Shown in pieces: positions 10,911-34,524 of a stretch of 64,000 nucleotides of DNA. Source of the DNA: BD2-11 clade cluster bacterium bin43 (GTDB lineage: Bacteria > Gemmatimonadota > Gemmatimonadetes > Longimicrobiales > Gaopeijiaceae); the NCBI GenBank assembly GCA_002238605.1, contig MPMR01000002.1, forward strand, positions 186,001-250,000. The letters run 5' to 3'. The notes under the pieces are model-generated. The model was not told the origin of the DNA, did not search any database, and saw only the letters and a list, made by a program, of their open reading frames with translations. The translations under genes and the position numbers were made by a program. Positions within the stretch are counted from its first letter, which is position 1; each line of letters begins with the position of its first letter.

Positions 10911-11327
10911 TCAGCGCAGGTCCCGGGGCCAGATCGCTGGCTGGCCCTTCAGCTTGACGGCTCCGAAGTCGCGCAGATCCAGCGTTGCGATCGCCTGCGC
11001 TTCCAACCGCTCCGCTACCGCCATGACGACGCCGTCGACCAGCCCCAGCGAGAGGTCACGATGGGCGCGGTCGAGCTCCAGCGCCCTCCGTACGTCGGCC
11101 CAGCCACTCCATTCGACGGCGAAGCAGCCCTCCTCCAGGTCGGCGTGGAATGCCCTGTGCACGGCGGGGCCGACCGTCCGGGGAATCATGTAGTCCAACT
11201 CGGGGAGGATCGCCCACGGCAATACCCACTGGTCCCGGCAGGCACGGAACGCCTCCGCCAACGCCCCGTGGGAACGACTCCCCCGATCGAGGAGTCCCAG
11301 CAGCGCGCTTGTGTCTGCCACGATCAC
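10911..11327 (-). CDS. vapC: VapC-type PIN-domain toxin (ribonuclease)
   Basis: 138 aa, normal for VapC. It opens MIVADTSALLGLL with the first catalytic Asp, has an acidic residue in ILPELDYMI, and ends with the GLVDGVVMAVAERL and IATLDLRDFG segments that complete the PIN active site. VapC toxins cleave tRNA or rRNA until bound by VapB. The start overlaps the antitoxin stop by 4 nt, giving the usual antitoxin-first operon. All recognisable acidic residues are present, so it is probably active. Confidence 0.85.
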   Translation of the reverse strand: MIVADTSALLGLLDRGSRSHGALAEAFRACRDQWVLPWAILPELDYMIPRTVGPAVHRAFHADLEEGCFAVEWSGWADVRRALELDRAHRDLSLGLVDGVVMAVAERLEAQAIATLDLRDFGAVKLKGQPAIWPRDLR

Positions 11328-11638
11328 GGGGCCGGATCCCCGGGCTCAGGGTGCGGGCGGTGCTCGGCGGCCGGTGCCGTGCCACGGTCCTCGGCGTCCG
11401 TGAGACCCTCTGCGCCGAAGCCGTCCAACATGTCCTCGTACCTCTCGGCCAGGTCGGCGACGCCGCTGTCTCCCATGCCGATGGACCGTGGCCATCGACG
11501 CTCGGTTGCGCGAGCCGCATACTCGGCCACCGCCTCGCGAACCAGCTCCGCCGCCGAACGCTTCTGGTCGGCCGCCAGCGACTTGAGCGTGCGGTAGTCG
11601 GCCGCATCCAGGTACACGGTGGTCTTGATCGTCTTCAT
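11324..11638 (-). CDS. vapB: VapB-type ribbon-helix-helix antitoxin
   Basis: 104 aa. The first 45 residues (MKTIKTTVYLDAADYRTLK, then a SAAELVREAVAEYAAR helix) form a ribbon-helix-helix DNA-binding unit. The acidic, Pro-rich C-terminal half is the part expected to wrap the toxin. The gene precedes vapC with a 4-nt overlap. No Shine-Dalgarno is visible before the ATG; instead, 4 nt upstream lies the palindromic operator at 11643-11668. A leaderless or very short-leader transcript repressed by the VapBC complex is the natural reading. Confidence 0.82.
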   Translation of the reverse strand: MKTIKTTVYLDAADYRTLKSLAADQKRSAAELVREAVAEYAARATERRWPRSIGMGDSGVADLAERYEDMLDGFGAEGLTDAEDRGTAPAAEHRPHPEPGDPAP

Positions 11639-11690: not shown

Positions 11691-12707
11691 TCAGCCGGTC
11701 GGCCGATACTCCGCAGCCGCCTGATGGAGCGCCCGGAACACGACCCCGCGGTCCCCGAGCCGGTGGTGCAGTTGGCGTTCCAGGCCGGCGATGGGATAGA
11801 GGTTCTGGGGAGCGCGGTCGTCCTTGTGGGGCTCGGAGGCGAACCGCGGCAGCACGACTGCGGTCGCGTCCGCGATCTTCCGCACCTGCTCCAGCTCCGT
11901 CTCCGGCCAGGCCTCGCAGCGAACGATTCCGGCCCAGGGGTGCCCCTGCGCTTCCGTCAGACGCAGGTACCACGAGTACCGCGTCCACTTCGTCTGGATG
12001 AGGAAGACGGGGGTTCGCTCGCGTGGCGCGAGCTGCCCCACCACCGCACGGGGGGCCGCGCCCAGATACTGCACGCGGTGGCTCTTCACGTAGCCGATGG
12101 CTCCCGGGATGCGCTGGCGGCCCCGCAACGGACCATCCATCAACATCAGGGCGCCGGAATGCAGCGGAGGGTTGGTGCCGTTGGAATCCGAGCCAAGGCC
12201 GACGCGCGCCGAACGACGGCGCGATCGCCGGGCGCCCCATCCCCCCGCAACCTCGACCTCCAGCTGACCCATTCGCTCCTGGAGGCCATTGACGAGCTGC
12301 TCGATGTCGTCTTCCGCCACCGGGCATGCGGCGAAGGTCCCCACCCGGGTCACCAGGTCAGGGACTCCGGCTTGCCCGAAGAAGCCACGGCGCACCTCGG
12401 CCGCCACGATCTCCGCCCTGCTTCCGCAGCGGACCATCCCGGCCGCGTACGAGGCGCAGATGCCCAGTCGGGGCTCGTCCTCGCCGCTCATCCAGACGCG
12501 CGCCTCGATGCGGCGCACGCCGTCGACGAAATAGACCCGCCCGGGGATCTCCCGCCGCTCGCCGGCAGGAAGCGGGCGCCATTCGCTCTCGGGAAGCTCC
12601 ACACCGGGGTCGACCTGCTCCCCCGGAATCTCCTCCCGCTTCGCCTCGACCGGGGAACCGAACTCCGGGGACCAGCCTTCGACGGCCAGGGACTCGAAGC
12701 GTTTCAC
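11691..12707 (-). CDS. nurA: NurA-family 5'-3' nuclease
   Basis: 338 aa from a GTG at 12707 that overlaps the rad50 stop (GTGA). The NurA fold is indicated by two Asp-Gly motifs with correct spacing: YFVDGVRRIEARVW near residues 58-72 and LMLMDGPLRGR near 185-200. These carry the metal-binding aspartates of the RNase H-like active site. A PVFLIQTKWTRYSWYLRL segment and a C-terminal YPIAGLERQLHHRL helix also match the family. NurA forms a complex with the HerA translocase and resects DNA ends together with Mre11-Rad50. It is the last gene of the herA-mre11-rad50-nurA operon. The Arg-rich stretch near 158-167 is unusual. Confidence 0.82.
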   Translation of the reverse strand: MKRFESLAVEGWSPEFGSPVEAKREEIPGEQVDPGVELPESEWRPLPAGERREIPGRVYFVDGVRRIEARVWMSGEDEPRLGICASYAAGMVRCGSRAEIVAAEVRRGFFGQAGVPDLVTRVGTFAACPVAEDDIEQLVNGLQERMGQLEVEVAGGWGARRSRRRSARVGLGSDSNGTNPPLHSGALMLMDGPLRGRQRIPGAIGYVKSHRVQYLGAAPRAVVGQLAPRERTPVFLIQTKWTRYSWYLRLTEAQGHPWAGIVRCEAWPETELEQVRKIADATAVVLPRFASEPHKDDRAPQNLYPIAGLERQLHHRLGDRGVVFRALHQAAAEYRPTG

Positions 12708-15484
12708 GTCTCCACCCGCGCCACCGAGGAGGAGTTTCCCACCTTCTTCACCCGGTACTGGACGGGGATGCGGTCGGCGAGCTCGGAGACATGGGTGACG
12801 ATCCCCACCATGCGCTCGGTACCGAGTTGCTCGATGGTGGCCGCCACTACATCCAGCGTCTCCGAATCCAGCGTGCCGAAGCCCTCGTCAAGAAAAAGCG
12901 CTTCGAGCTTGGCGCTCCCGCGCGCCGCCAGTTCGGCCACCTGCTCCGCCAGCGAAAGAGCAAGCGCCAGGGAGGCAAGAAAGGTTTCACCGCCGGAGAG
13001 CGTCTTTGCCAGGCGCGGCTCGTCGGCGTTCCTGTGATCGATCACCAGGAATTCGTTTTTTCCGGAGAGATCCAGCGAGTACTGGCCGCTGGAGAGTTCC
13101 CGCAGCCGCGCCGTCGCCCCCTGGACCAGCCAGGCCAGGATCTGATTCTGCAGCCAGGCGCCGAAGTTCTTGGCGTTGAGATGGTTGCCCAGATCCCGGG
13201 CGATCAACGCGCGCTGGTGCGCGTGTTTCCGTTGCTCCTCGACGCGCTCTCTCTCCCGGGCGGCTTCGCGAAGATCATCGAGACCCTTGCGGGCGGCTCC
13301 CAGCTCCTCCGCGCACCTCTTCGCGGGATCCTCTTCGGATCCCAGGGAAAGGCCGTCGTGACCGCACCGCTCCCGGAGTCGGGCATCGAGGCGGTCCTTT
13401 TCCGAGGACGCAGCCTCGCGCGCGGCGCCCGCCCGGGCCATCGCCTCCTGCGTTGCGCCGTACTGCCGCCCGGCCCATTCCGACAGCCTCGCCCAGGAGC
13501 CGGCCAGGTCACCTTCGACTGAAGCCGGCGGCTTCATCTCGGCGACGAGATCGCGAACCTCGCCGTACTCCGACCACGCAGCGTCCAGACGCGTCTGCCC
13601 CTTCTCGAGCTCCCTTCTCGCGTGCTCGTGGGTGCGCCGCGCCGACTTCTCTTCCACCCCCGCCCGCCGCAACGACCCGTCCGCCGAGCTGATCGCATCC
13701 AGGAGGGCCGCCGCCTCGTCCGGGGTGGGAGCCTCTCGCAGGTCGGCTCTCAGGTTGGTCGCGAATGCCTTCTGCTGCTTGAGGGTCGCGCTGGCGCTCC
13801 TCAGCCGTCCGTCCGCCTCTGCTCGCTTTCCGGCCGCTTCCTCAACCCGTCGCGCCAAGCGCTCGACGCGGGCTTCGCAGGCAGCGATCTCGACCATCAG
13901 CGCGGATATTTCTTCGTCCGTGGGGGCCTCGGACAAGGACACCCGCAGGGACTCGGCGGACTGCTCCCGGAGCGTCAGGGTGGTCGCGCAGGCGGTCCGC
14001 GCCGACCTGCAGCGATCCCTGTCGGCTCCGGCCTGGACGGCTGCACGTTCCGTCACCCGCTTCCGCTCTCGAGCCGCGTCCAGGTCCTCGGGAGGGTCGT
14101 GGTCGGGGAGGTGGGCTACGTTCTGGCGACAGACCGGGCACGGCCTGCCCTCTTCCAGGTGGTGAGCCATGTCGGCCGCGCTGTGCGCCACGCGGAGGGC
14201 CTCAAACGCCCGTGCCGCAGCCTCCATCGTCCGATCAGCTTCGGTTTTTCGGCCGCGCGCCGCCGTGTACGCCTGCTCGGCCTGCGCCAGGTCGCGGCCT
14301 GCGCGCTCGGCGTCGTCCTCCGTTCCGGCGAGCTGCTTCCGCTTCTCCCGGACGCCTTCGAGTTCCGATTTCCCGGGGAGCCGCCCCAGCACCTCCCGAG
14401 CCTTGGAGAGATCCTCCCGGGCCGACTTGTCATCCGCGACAGCTACGGCGGCGGTCTCGGCCGCCGCATTCAGCTCTCTCCGGGTGCGATCGATGTCCGC
14501 GTCCAGGCGCGCCAGGTCCGCCCTCTGCTTCACGACCTTTTCGACGGCTGCCCTTTCCGGTAGCGCGTCGCGCATCGCCTGGGCAGCGCGCAGACTCGAG
14601 GCTGCGGCTTCGCGGGCCTCCGAAGCCCGACGGAGTTCCTGCTCGGCCTGCCTGTGCCGGGTCGCCAGTTCGGAGGTGCTCTCCGGAACTCGAACCTCCC
14701 CCAGCAGCTCCAGCTGCTCGGCGCCCTTCGACCACCGCTCGCCCGCGGCCTCGATCGCCGTGGCGGCCTCGATCAGCCTGCCCGAGACCCCGTCGATATG
14801 CTCTCTGAGTCTCTCGAGCGTCGCGACCCGGTTTTCCGCTTCGCGAACGGCTTCCGGGGTCGCGTGAGTCAGCGCGGACTCAAGGCGCCACTGCAGATTG
14901 GCGACCCGGTTTTCCTCCTCCTTCCACCGCAGGTTTGCCGCCTTGCGCAGCCTCTCGTACAGACCGAGCCCGAGCAATCGCTCGAGCAGCTGCTTTCGCT
15001 CGCCGGGTTTCGCCCGCAGGAAGGCCGCGAACTCGCCCTGCGGGAGCACGACGCACTTGGTGAAGTGGTCGAGGCCCAGCCCGATGACGTCGTTCTGGAC
15101 GCAGGCCGATAGTTCCGACTCCGTGGCCGCCAGGGTCTTCACCGAGGCGCCGTTCTCGCTCTCCTCCAGGCGGGCTTCCTTCGTGGTGGCGCCGGTTGCG
15201 GTGCGCTGCACGACCCGGACCGCCGAATAGGTCCTCCCCCGCGCCTCGAAGTCGAGCCGCACCCTCGCGCGGACCTTGCCCTGGCTGATGACCGGCGCGA
15301 TCAGGTTCCGGTTGTCGTAGCGCGGCACCGAGCCGTAGAGGGCGAAGATCATCGCGTCGATGAGGCTCGACTTGCCGGATCCCGTCGCTCCCCTGAAGAC
15401 GAAGAGGTCGGTGTCCTCGAAGCTCACCTCCGTCCGCTCGCGAAAGGAGGTGAAGCCCTCCAGTTCAAGCCGCAGCGGACGCAT
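12704..15484 (-). CDS. sbcC: Rad50/SbcC-type SMC-like ATPase with zinc hook
   Basis: 926 aa from the ATG at 15484, chosen because MRPLRLELEGFTSF is the canonical family N-terminus; the frame continues 15 codons upstream without support. The Walker A motif is GATGSGKS (32-39). A central CPVC zinc hook at residues 449-452 is flanked by two long coiled-coil arms rich in Glu, Arg and Ala. The C-terminal lobe has LSGGETFLASLALALS and the Walker B LFLDEGFGTLD. It joins Mre11 (385 aa, gene just upstream, 20-nt overlap) to tether and process DNA ends. Its neighbours are HerA and NurA, so it acts here in an end-resection set rather than a stand-alone sbcCD pair. Confidence 0.93.
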   Translation of the reverse strand: MRPLRLELEGFTSFRERTEVSFEDTDLFVFRGATGSGKSSLIDAMIFALYGSVPRYDNRNLIAPVISQGKVRARVRLDFEARGRTYSAVRVVQRTATGATTKEARLEESENGASVKTLAATESELSACVQNDVIGLGLDHFTKCVVLPQGEFAAFLRAKPGERKQLLERLLGLGLYERLRKAANLRWKEEENRVANLQWRLESALTHATPEAVREAENRVATLERLREHIDGVSGRLIEAATAIEAAGERWSKGAEQLELLGEVRVPESTSELATRHRQAEQELRRASEAREAAASSLRAAQAMRDALPERAAVEKVVKQRADLARLDADIDRTRRELNAAAETAAVAVADDKSAREDLSKAREVLGRLPGKSELEGVREKRKQLAGTEDDAERAGRDLAQAEQAYTAARGRKTEADRTMEAAARAFEALRVAHSAADMAHHLEEGRPCPVCRQNVAHLPDHDPPEDLDAARERKRVTERAAVQAGADRDRCRSARTACATTLTLREQSAESLRVSLSEAPTDEEISALMVEIAACEARVERLARRVEEAAGKRAEADGRLRSASATLKQQKAFATNLRADLREAPTPDEAAALLDAISSADGSLRRAGVEEKSARRTHEHARRELEKGQTRLDAAWSEYGEVRDLVAEMKPPASVEGDLAGSWARLSEWAGRQYGATQEAMARAGAAREAASSEKDRLDARLRERCGHDGLSLGSEEDPAKRCAEELGAARKGLDDLREAARERERVEEQRKHAHQRALIARDLGNHLNAKNFGAWLQNQILAWLVQGATARLRELSSGQYSLDLSGKNEFLVIDHRNADEPRLAKTLSGGETFLASLALALSLAEQVAELAARGSAKLEALFLDEGFGTLDSETLDVVAATIEQLGTERMVGIVTHVSELADRIPVQYRVKKVGNSSSVARVET

Positions 15485-16622
15485 ACTCCTCCTCGAGCAA
15501 CTCGTCGAAAAGTCCCGCCAGCTCTTCACCCGCGATGTCGCGCTCCTTCAGATAGCGCCGAAACTGCGTGCGCGGATCGCGCAGCTTGCCGGGATCGACG
15601 GGCTCGGGCCCGTTTACGTCTCCATTCGGACGCGCGACGATTACGTCCACGGCATGCGGGAACATCCCCCGGACCCGTTCGGCGAGGCCGGGTGAGGGCG
15701 CCTCCTCGACGATGACGCGGAGGAAGTCGTCGCCGGTCGTTCCCTCCATGGCGTCCAGGTCGAGACTGCTGCCGCGCAGGGTGCGCAGGGCCCGCCCCGA
15801 CGTCAGCGGGACCTTTTGCACGCGCGCCGGCCGATTCGCCGCCGCCTCTACGACCAGGACGCAGTTCTCCCCATGGGTCTCGCCGAAGTCGAGGGCGAAA
15901 GGCGAGCCGGCGTACCAGATGGGGCACTTTCCGGGGATCATCTGGGGTTTGTGGATGTGCCCGAGGGCGACGTAATGGGCGCTCGTGGGAAAGAGGTCCG
16001 CGGGGACGTAGTAGTCGAAGATGTGAGCCTCTCGTTCGCCGCCTCCCATCGCCGCGCCAACCACGGTCAGGTGAGCCACGACCAGGTTGACGGTCTCGGG
16101 AGAGAATTGCCCGCACAGCGCGGCCGCGATCGTGCGGCAACGGCCGCTGTACTCCTTCTGGTGATCGTCGGGGTCGCCCCCCATGAGCGCCTCCGCGGTC
16201 ACGATCCCGCGCTTCGACTGGAAGGGGAAGAGCGCGATGCACGCCGTCTCGCCGGACCTGGTGTCGAGGCGCACCACGCCGCCTTCGTCCGGTCGAGTCA
16301 CCCTGACCGCCGAGGTGACGTCGGCGAGCTCGAGCAGCGGGCCGACCGCAGCCAGCCGGCGCGGATTGTCGTGATTCCCGGCGATGACGACGACGTGGGC
16401 GCCGGTGCGGGCCAGCCGCAGCAGCGCGTCGTAGACGATTTCCTCCGACTCGGGACTGGGGACGGCGCGGTCGAACTGGTCGCCGGCGACCAGCACGATA
16501 TCGACGGCCTCCCGCTCGGCGATGGCGATGATCTCGTCGAGGACGGCCCGGTGTTCGTCGGCCCGGCTGCGCCCGCGGAGCGTCTTGCCGACATGCCAGT
16601 CCGCGGTGTGGAGGACTTTCAT
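15465..16622 (-). CDS. sbcD: Mre11/SbcD-type DNA exonuclease
   Basis: 385 aa starting MKVLHTADWHVGK. The ATG at 16622 lies one base past the herA stop, and the 22 codons of open frame above it lie inside herA. The phosphoesterase motifs appear in order: HTADWHVG, VAGDQFDRA, VIAGNHD, VVAHLTVVG and YVALGHIHKP. They supply the Asp, His and Asn ligands of the two Mn ions. Mre11 nicks or degrades DNA ends and hairpins with Rad50 ATP hydrolysis. The C-terminal tail (about 280-385) is the Rad50-binding part. The near-abutting start suggests translational coupling to herA. Confidence 0.93.
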   Translation of the reverse strand: MKVLHTADWHVGKTLRGRSRADEHRAVLDEIIAIAEREAVDIVLVAGDQFDRAVPSPESEEIVYDALLRLARTGAHVVVIAGNHDNPRRLAAVGPLLELADVTSAVRVTRPDEGGVVRLDTRSGETACIALFPFQSKRGIVTAEALMGGDPDDHQKEYSGRCRTIAAALCGQFSPETVNLVVAHLTVVGAAMGGGEREAHIFDYYVPADLFPTSAHYVALGHIHKPQMIPGKCPIWYAGSPFALDFGETHGENCVLVVEAAANRPARVQKVPLTSGRALRTLRGSSLDLDAMEGTTGDDFLRVIVEEAPSPGLAERVRGMFPHAVDVIVARPNGDVNGPEPVDPGKLRDPRTQFRRYLKERDIAGEELAGLFDELLEEEYASAAA

Positions 16623-16623
16623 G

Positions 16624-18330
16624 TCACCAGGACCCGAGGCCCTCGAAGGGATCGCCGCCGCCGCTCCCGGTCTCCCCTTCCCCCCCACCGGCGTCTCCCG
16701 CCTCGTCCGGCCGGGTGGCCCACGCGGGAAAGGGGAACTCGAGCACCAGCGGAACCGGCAGCTCGGGCTGCGACAGGATCATGGTGCCGGGCTTGAGGAT
16801 GGTGGCGCGCTGCCGGTGGGCGGTCGGCAGGAAGGCGTACTCGGGCCGCCCCGCCTCGGCGCTGTCCAGACGCCCGGCCACCCTGAGCGAGGAGTTGGCG
16901 ATGACGCGGCGCTCCACCTCGCTGGCGGTCTGCTGTGCGCCGATCAGGATCACACCCAGCGAGCGGCCGCGCTCGGCCATGTCCAGCAGGATCTCCTTGA
17001 TGGGGCTGCGGCCGTCCCGGGGCGCGTACTTGTTCAGTTCGTCCAGCACCACGAAGAGCAGCGGCTCGCGCGCGCCCGTCTCCTCCTTGTCCTGGAAGGT
17101 CTTGCGCAGCACCACTCCCACGACGAAGCGCTGTGCCCGGCGCGACAGCTTGGCGATGTCGACCACCGTGAGCTGCTCCTGCATGCCGATGCGGTGCTTG
17201 TCCGGGTTGGGCACGTCGCCCCGCACCAGGTGCTCGGCGTCCCGGCGGGCCGCGTACAGGCGCCGCACGAAGGCGTTGATGGTGCCGCCGCCGATGGAGC
17301 GCCCCGCCCAGTCTGGCTGATCCGCCGGATCCTCCACGCGCTCGCGGATGGCCTCGATCAGGTCGCCGAAGGTGCGGCAGGTGGTCCCCGCGACGCGCAC
17401 GCCTCCGTCATCGAGCGGCCGCGCGTCGCGCCGCAGCCGCGCGGTCACGTTGTGCACCACGATGGTGTATTGCTGGCGCTCGTCCTCGGCGTCCGCGAAC
17501 AGGAACGGGAGAAGCTCGTCCTGACAGAAATCCGACAGCGTCCAGAAGAACGAGGTGACTCCCTCGGAACGGCTCCCGGTGCGGGGTGCGGCGGAGGGGT
17601 CGCCCGGGCGCGGCGGCGCCCACAGTTCGACGCTGCCGAAGGGCTGGGCCGGAAGATCGAGCGCCGCATAGCGGGCTGCCTGCTCTCCGTCCAGGTGGCG
17701 GTTGCGCTTGTCCAGGAAGAGCAGGTCGTCGCCCTTCACGTTGAAGATCAGCGCCTTTGTGTTGTGGGCGCCGTCGCCCAGCTGGCCCGAGGTGAACAGG
17801 CTGTGCAGCAGAAAGACGGCGTAGCTGGTCTTGGTCGCCACCCCCGACACGCCGCTGATGTTGACGTGCGCGCCGCGGGTGCCGTCCAGGAACTCTACGT
17901 TGGCGTGCACCACCTCGCCGTCGCGCGACAGGCCGACGGGCATCCTGCGCTCCATGCCGTCGAAGAAGAGAGCCTCCTCGCGCTCCTTGCCGACTGCCTT
18001 GCGCACCAACTGGCCGGGCACGGGAGGGACGAACACCTCGGGCTCGAAGCGGGTCGCCAGCACCTTGGCCGCTTCGGTCACCTGTGCCGGGAGCACCCCT
18101 TCCTCGATCAGGAAAACGTCGCTGTCGAAGCGCGCGCCTTCGTGTCGGACGCGCAGGTCGGCCACCATGCCGTAGATGCGGATCGGATCCGCCGCGCCCG
18201 GAAGGAGGCGCTCGACAACGACCACGTCGTCGAGCTGCAGGAAGGCCCCGTCGGCCACCGCCACCCAGAACTCGAGCGGCGTCGCCGGATCCGTGCCGAT
18301 GACCCGGCCGACCGGGATCGATTCGCTCAC
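16624..18330 (-). CDS. herA: HerA-type DNA translocase ATPase
   Basis: 568 aa from a GTG start. The N-terminal 100 residues fit a HAS-barrel (SIPVGRVIG start). The ATPase domain has an odd P-loop, GVSGVATKTS at residues 160-169, with Thr where the last Gly of G-x4-GK[ST] should be and one residue more than the canonical spacing. The Walker B LFVVLDELNKYAPR has Asp430-Glu431, and the C-terminal FLPTAHRQRA and ILSQPELPVPL segments match HerA. The hexameric enzyme pumps DNA into the NurA nuclease. It is the first gene of the four-gene operon; no clear promoter was found in the 122-bp gap upstream. Confidence 0.82.
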   Translation of the reverse strand: MSESIPVGRVIGTDPATPLEFWVAVADGAFLQLDDVVVVERLLPGAADPIRIYGMVADLRVRHEGARFDSDVFLIEEGVLPAQVTEAAKVLATRFEPEVFVPPVPGQLVRKAVGKEREEALFFDGMERRMPVGLSRDGEVVHANVEFLDGTRGAHVNISGVSGVATKTSYAVFLLHSLFTSGQLGDGAHNTKALIFNVKGDDLLFLDKRNRHLDGEQAARYAALDLPAQPFGSVELWAPPRPGDPSAAPRTGSRSEGVTSFFWTLSDFCQDELLPFLFADAEDERQQYTIVVHNVTARLRRDARPLDDGGVRVAGTTCRTFGDLIEAIRERVEDPADQPDWAGRSIGGGTINAFVRRLYAARRDAEHLVRGDVPNPDKHRIGMQEQLTVVDIAKLSRRAQRFVVGVVLRKTFQDKEETGAREPLLFVVLDELNKYAPRDGRSPIKEILLDMAERGRSLGVILIGAQQTASEVERRVIANSSLRVAGRLDSAEAGRPEYAFLPTAHRQRATILKPGTMILSQPELPVPLVLEFPFPAWATRPDEAGDAGGGEGETGSGGGDPFEGLGSW

Positions 18331-34412: not shown

Positions 34413-34453
34413 CGGGATCGTGATGGCGGCTCCTCCTGCACGGCTGGAGCGGA

Positions 34454-34524
34454 TTGGCCCGGGTGGATTCGAACCACCACCGCCGGTTCCAAAGACCGGT
34501 GTCCTGCCATTAGACGACGGGCCA
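34454..34524 (-). tRNA. trnQ: tRNA-Gln (anticodon TTG)
   Basis: 71 nt without encoded CCA. The 7-bp acceptor stem pairs TGGCCCG (34518-34524) with CGGGCCA (34455-34461), discriminator A. The anticodon arm CCGGT-CTTTGGA-ACCGG gives loop anticodon TTG, reading CAA/CAG. The T arm contains GGTTCGAATCC. No adjacent tRNA is present. Confidence 0.95.

Follow-up and report, generated by a model that had tools for sequence, protein, structure and literature searches.

A HerA-SbcCD-NurA operon of predicted DNA-end-processing function in Gemmatimonadota and the repeated switching of its versions within one family

The window (the whole stretch of 64,000 nucleotides that was analysed) carries the genes herA, mre11, rad50 and nurA as an intact, collinear operon that we propose, with a probability of roughly three in four, to encode a bacterial DNA-end-processing machine working beside an AddAB-like complex, RecJ and RecO. 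The sequence itself shows which genes are present and how they are ordered, that their catalytic residues are kept, that HerA and NurA are homologous to the active Deinococcus radiodurans complex, and that the genome has an AddAB-like pair and a single SbcD. The operon itself is of a known kind, and what is new is its evolution, since two deeply different versions of it have switched repeatedly within the family of the host.

The four genes run in the order herA, mre11, rad50, nurA on the minus strand from 18330 to 11691 (Table 1). One base pair separates the stop of herA (16624) from the ATG of mre11 (16622), the end of mre11 and the start of rad50 share 20 bp when ATG 15484 is taken as the rad50 start, and rad50 and nurA overlap by 4 bp in a shared GTGA. 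These coordinates bear out the initial annotation, which had described four genes on one strand joined by a 1-bp gap and overlaps, and its placement of the CPVC motif at Rad50 residues 449-452 is correct when counted from ATG 15484 (464 in the longer ORF). The operon is neighboured by DAHP synthase and smc genes and by an RHH-PIN (VapBC-like) pair. The pair (10911-11638) comes after nurA in the window, as it does at L057:14288-15438, and its homologue lies between rad50 and nurA in the sister loci L056:13598-14418 and L058:9689-10509; because the order differs among sister loci, the pair and nurA have swapped positions within the genus.

Table 1. Coordinates of the operon, its motifs and the adjoining gene pair in the window
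Feature	Position	Strand	Evidence
herA, Deinococcus-type HerA/FtsK-family predicted hexameric DNA translocase, 568 aa, GTG start	16624..18330	-	PDB 7F6D_B E 1.2e-152; family alignment
HerA Walker A, non-canonical G-x-S-G-x-A-T-K-T, residues 160-169 (K167/T168)	17824..17853	-	in 88/88 HerA rows; corresponds to D. radiodurans K175/T176
HerA Walker B DELNKYAPR, D430/E431, with translocation arginine R438	17017..17043	-	corresponds to D. radiodurans D487/E488/R495
mre11, sbcD-type nuclease, ATG 16622 (longer ORF from 16688)	15465..16622	-	TIGR00619 sbcd 184.8 bits; PF00149
rad50, sbcC-type SMC-like ATPase, ATG 15484 (longer ORF from 15529)	12704..15484	-	PF13476, PF13558; TIGR00618 241.7 bits, under cut-off 478.5
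Rad50 zinc hook CPVC	14129..14140	-	sequence motif
nurA nuclease, GTG 12707 start; D62/K208/R298	11691..12707	-	PF09376 22.4 bits; D. radiodurans NurA 7F6D_H E 1.4e-20; residue mapping
RHH antitoxin-like gene, adjoining the operon, outside the resection set	11324..11638	-	PF01402
PIN-domain VapC-like toxin gene, partner of the RHH gene	10911..11327	-	PF01850

HerA of the window is homologous over its full length (residues 6-557) to the D. radiodurans protein in PDB 7F6D. It gave no match to Pfam at E 0.01 and no meaningful match to NCBIfam, where a single unrelated-looking model matched weakly; matches to the HerA models of PADLOC were weak and partial. Mapping of positions that mutants or structures of the D. 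radiodurans complex have proved important (PMC9960219) showed that K167, T168, D202, D430, E431, R438 and R495 are kept, so that the Walker A K/T, the Walker B D-E, the catalytic aspartate and the pore arginines of the Deinococcus type are all present. Judged by its sequence, HerA is of the bacterial Deinococcus type, and hexameric DNA-dependent ATPase activity is predicted for it. The Walker A motif, GVSGVATKT, was considered as a novelty and rejected as such: G[VI]SG[VL]ATKT is the norm of the family in every HerA row examined and also occurs in the solved Deinococcus structure. NurA passes the cut-off of its domain model (21 bits for PF09376), and its D62, K208 and R298 align with the catalytic D53, K201 and R309 of D. 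radiodurans NurA. The expectation that models would recognise both proteins was thus confirmed, for NurA by PF09376 and for HerA, which lacks a Pfam match, by the Deinococcus structure.

Mre11 scores above the cut-off of the SbcD model TIGR00619 (77.65 bits). Rad50 has both ATPase halves and the hook; its score against TIGR00618 stays under the cut-off of that model. Compared with the best archaeal models, to which Mre11 and Rad50 score 54 and 95 bits, the bacterial SbcD and SbcC scores are 185 and 242 bits, and the Mre11-Rad50 pair is by this comparison of the bacterial SbcCD type rather than the archaeal. Archaeal-type sequences, as expected of a member of the archaeal HerA-Mre11-Rad50-NurA operons, were therefore not found for Mre11 and Rad50. 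The description of the genes as the classic archaeal set holds for the order of the four genes but not for their sequences, which are bacterial in their SbcD/SbcC scores and in their Deinococcus-type HerA.

Sets of this kind are already known from Deinococcus, relatives of Thermus and archaea. D. radiodurans NurA-HerA (PDB 7F6D, 7WRW and 7WRX; PMC9960219) is homologous to the window pair over nearly its full length and shares with it the non-canonical Walker A, the Walker B, the arginines of translocation and the catalytic residues of NurA; however, it is encoded by a two-gene nurA-herA operon in a host said to lack RecBCD and AddAB, whereas the window pair is joined to SbcCD in a genome with an AddAB-like pair. 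The nurA-hepA-sbcDC cluster of Oceanithermus profundus (PMC5448004) brings all four functions together in a single cluster and, as in the window, has SbcD and SbcC of the bacterial type, but in it nurA comes before herA, an order described for Thermus relatives, whereas nurA is last in the window. The archaeal herA-mre11-rad50-nurA operon, as it is cited (Constantinesco et al. 2004, in PMC5448004), likewise clusters the four functions, although in the window Mre11 and Rad50 are matched far better by the SbcD and SbcC models; bacterial and archaeal HerA and NurA are published as sharing <20% identity. The Sir2-HerA and DUF4297-HerA anti-phage systems have the HerA ATPase core in common with the window (weak PDB and PADLOC matches), but the likeness is limited to the surroundings of Walker B, and the partners beside HerA in the window are NurA and SbcCD instead of Sir2 or DUF4297. 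The bacterial HerA-NurA work that we found in the open-licence literature rests on Deinococcus and Thermus, and NurA/HerA homologues have been noted in Actinobacteria (PMC8708640). A search of the same literature for the four-gene set in Gemmatimonadota returned a single, unrelated paper, and none of the papers listed deals with version switching of the operon.

We also searched the whole genome of the host (4.47 Mb, 65 contigs, 97% complete). The initial annotation had seen neither recBCD nor addAB; the search, however, revealed an AddAB-like pair of overlapping adjacent reading frames on contig C53, consisting of an AddB-like protein of 1127 aa with PDDEXK_1 (L039:2317-5697) and an AddA-like protein of 1243 aa with UvrD-helicase and PDDEXK_1 domains (L039:5427-9155). 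Matches of the pair to the NCBIfam AddA and RexB models are below the cut-offs. RecJ and RecO are encoded in the same genome, and as a result the operon is not the sole resection route. A full RecBCD or AddAB together with SbcCD elsewhere in the genome, with this set unexpressed, had been named as evidence that would overturn the initial proposal: the AddAB-like pair does lie elsewhere, but no second SbcD was found, and the SbcD of the operon is the only one of the genome. A recA gene (PF00154; 44857-46134) is present in the same window, as annotated, but it is not beside the operon, lying ~26 kb away and adjoining alaS. Elsewhere in the window, at 34438-34524, ARAGORN predicts tRNA-Arg (+) and tRNA-Gln (-) on the same bases, of which at most one is likely to be real.

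In the mechanism that we propose, Mre11-Rad50 (SbcCD) would be the part that recognises DNA ends, blocked or hairpin ones among them, and opens or trims them; HerA would act as a hexameric, ATP-driven ring that pulls duplex DNA into a NurA dimer, and the NurA dimer would cut it, leading either to a 3' tail for RecA or to full degradation. That the four genes are expressed together, and that their products form a complex, are active and play such a role in the cell, is what we infer. The role of HerA-NurA is disputed between resection and antiviral degradation: the D. radiodurans proteins resect 5' ends in vitro (PMC9960219), but deletion of nurA-herA raised the resistance of that host to UV and mitomycin C (PMC9960219), and for the Thermococcus HerA-NurA a 2026 study argues that both strands are degraded, maybe as an antiviral activity and not resection (PMC12977600). 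The deletion result and the Thermococcus study count against the proposed machine, as does the consideration that the AddAB-like pair could perform resection itself.

The distribution of HerA was surveyed at the protein level in 200 genomes from across the phylum, with versions A, B and C set by identity and tree. HerA is present in 131 of the 200: version A, the type of the window, in 13 genomes (the hybrid G035 included), version C, with HerA about 42% identical to the window type, in 12, and version B, about 33% identical, in 106 genomes, mostly of families f4 and f5. Wherever enough flank could be read, nurA accompanies herA in all version A and C loci of the phylum; it lies upstream of herA in version C and in most version B loci examined, and at the operon end in the clade of the window. 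PDDEXK_1 at E <= 1e-20, a threshold chosen for this analysis, served as the sign of AddAB-like proteins and, with counts tabulated by hand, was positive in 13/13 version A, 12/12 version C and 15/106 version B genomes and in 51/69 genomes without HerA. We considered HerA and AddAB as alternatives to each other and rejected this: the contrast is strong across families (Fisher p 1.6e-22) but, in the same counts, is not visible within family f5, indicating a lineage pattern that is not independent evidence. Four genomes of that family (G055, G068, G078 and G180) gave neither a HerA match nor a strong PDDEXK_1 match.

Versions A and C are mutually exclusive in the host's family, where no searched genome carries both. 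An AlaS tree covering 28 genomes requires the A/C label to change at least 6 times, all forced by well-supported branches, and a tree from the RecA DNA of 19 genomes requires 6 changes, 4 of them forced; these counts carry no direction, and the two trees are not fully independent because the genes are neighbours in the genome. The clearest comparison is offered by G173 (version A) and G061 (version C), which are sisters in both trees and share 92% DNA identity around alaS. Their operons occupy the same locus, with 89% identity across 650 bp of one flank and 88% across 7.9 kb of the other, whereas the ~7 kb between the flanks yield only short, weak matches and differ in gene order. Loci L139:3394-18710 and L140:3013-19001 represent sister species with different operon versions at one locus between 88–89% identical flanks. 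Similarly, in the single-contig genomes G017 (A) and G058 (C) the operons differ behind a common upstream flank, which encodes an aminotransferase and a TonB receptor with 77-79% identity at the protein level. The simplest reading of these alignments is that the whole operon has been replaced in place.

Exchange may also involve single genes. In genome G035 (L055, G035:C16:16000-34000), HerA and Mre11 belong to the clade of the window, and a version-C NurA lies upstream. HerA of this hybrid is 73% identical to that of the window and 42% to version C, whereas its NurA shares 62-70% identity with three NurAs of version C from genus g2 and 33% with the window NurA; grouping it with the window clade is rejected by the AU test (p about 1e-45). 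The hybrid stretch is one assembled contig with no N. In-place swaps and NurA exchange thereby provide natural allele pairs and a natural hybrid with which the purpose of the machine, and how close a match between NurA and HerA it demands, can be tested.

How this turnover arose, and what it says about function, can be read in several ways. The two versions might be former tandem paralogues that were differentially lost, with no transfer or replacement. This history draws on the direction-free switch counts and on the long version-C HerA branch, which the trees cannot place (AU p 0.6), but it requires many parallel losses, no genome holds both versions, and sister species carry one version or the other in the same place, bounded by flanks that are 88-89% identical; we judge it improbable. 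If operons are indeed replaced, whole operons may be exchangeable immunity-like alleles that succeed each other at one locus, with NurA traded, under conflict with phages or plasmids. The turnover fits conflict with phages without demonstrating it, and we put this idea forward tentatively, as possible but somewhat doubtful. Another proposal sees in the operon chiefly an innate defence nuclease, degrading linear foreign DNA from its ends and leaving repair to AddAB, with phage inhibitors or specificity driving the turnover. The repeated switching of two deeply different, mutually exclusive versions in one family, once by replacement at one locus, the presence of the other version's NurA in one genome, the strong AddAB-type match in every A and C genome and the degradation of both strands by Thermococcus HerA-NurA (PMC12977600) all speak for it. 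Against this, the operon adjoins housekeeping genes (DAHP synthase and smc) in the genus of the window, with no recognisable defence island, the PADLOC matches to HerA are weak and partial, and the operon contains neither the Sir2 nor the DUF4297 partner found in known HerA defence systems. On balance, a mainly defensive role seems unlikely.

At the opposite pole, the operon could be the main end-resection machine of the host, as had been suggested initially, with AddAB idle or specialised. The sole SbcD of the genome lies in the operon, and in the sister families f4 and f5, which have version B, 91 of 106 genomes are without a strong AddAB-type match. However, the f4/f5 pattern holds between families and not within them and is not independent evidence, several f5 genomes are without both HerA and a strong AddAB-type match, all 25 genomes with version A or C have such a match, and the genome of the window has its own AddAB-like pair along with RecJ and RecO. 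The suggestion is consequently not demonstrated, and we regard it as improbable. An end-processing machine that works beside AddAB, RecJ and RecO remains our preferred reading.

Outside the phylum, Actinomycetota commonly have the order herA-mre11-rad50-nurA; it is frequent in Acidimicrobiia, Nitriliruptorales and Micromonosporaceae, and the exact order occurs in most Acidimicrobiia and Micromonosporaceae loci on long enough contigs. In some actinobacterial relatives (L062, L064, L072, L109, L111 and L122) unrelated genes of ~1.5-4 kb split the four-gene set. On the HerA tree the window clade falls among actinobacterial HerA. We considered horizontal transfer from Actinomycetota but claim no donor or direction, given that version C forms a long branch that AU tests cannot place (p 0.6). 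Operons close to that of the window were also found in two records titled Gammaproteobacteria, L057 (JAPPJO010000088.1) and L063 (JAPPND010000033.1); the label of the L057 bin is probably wrong, the smc-DAHP synthase neighbourhood being common to L057 and the window.
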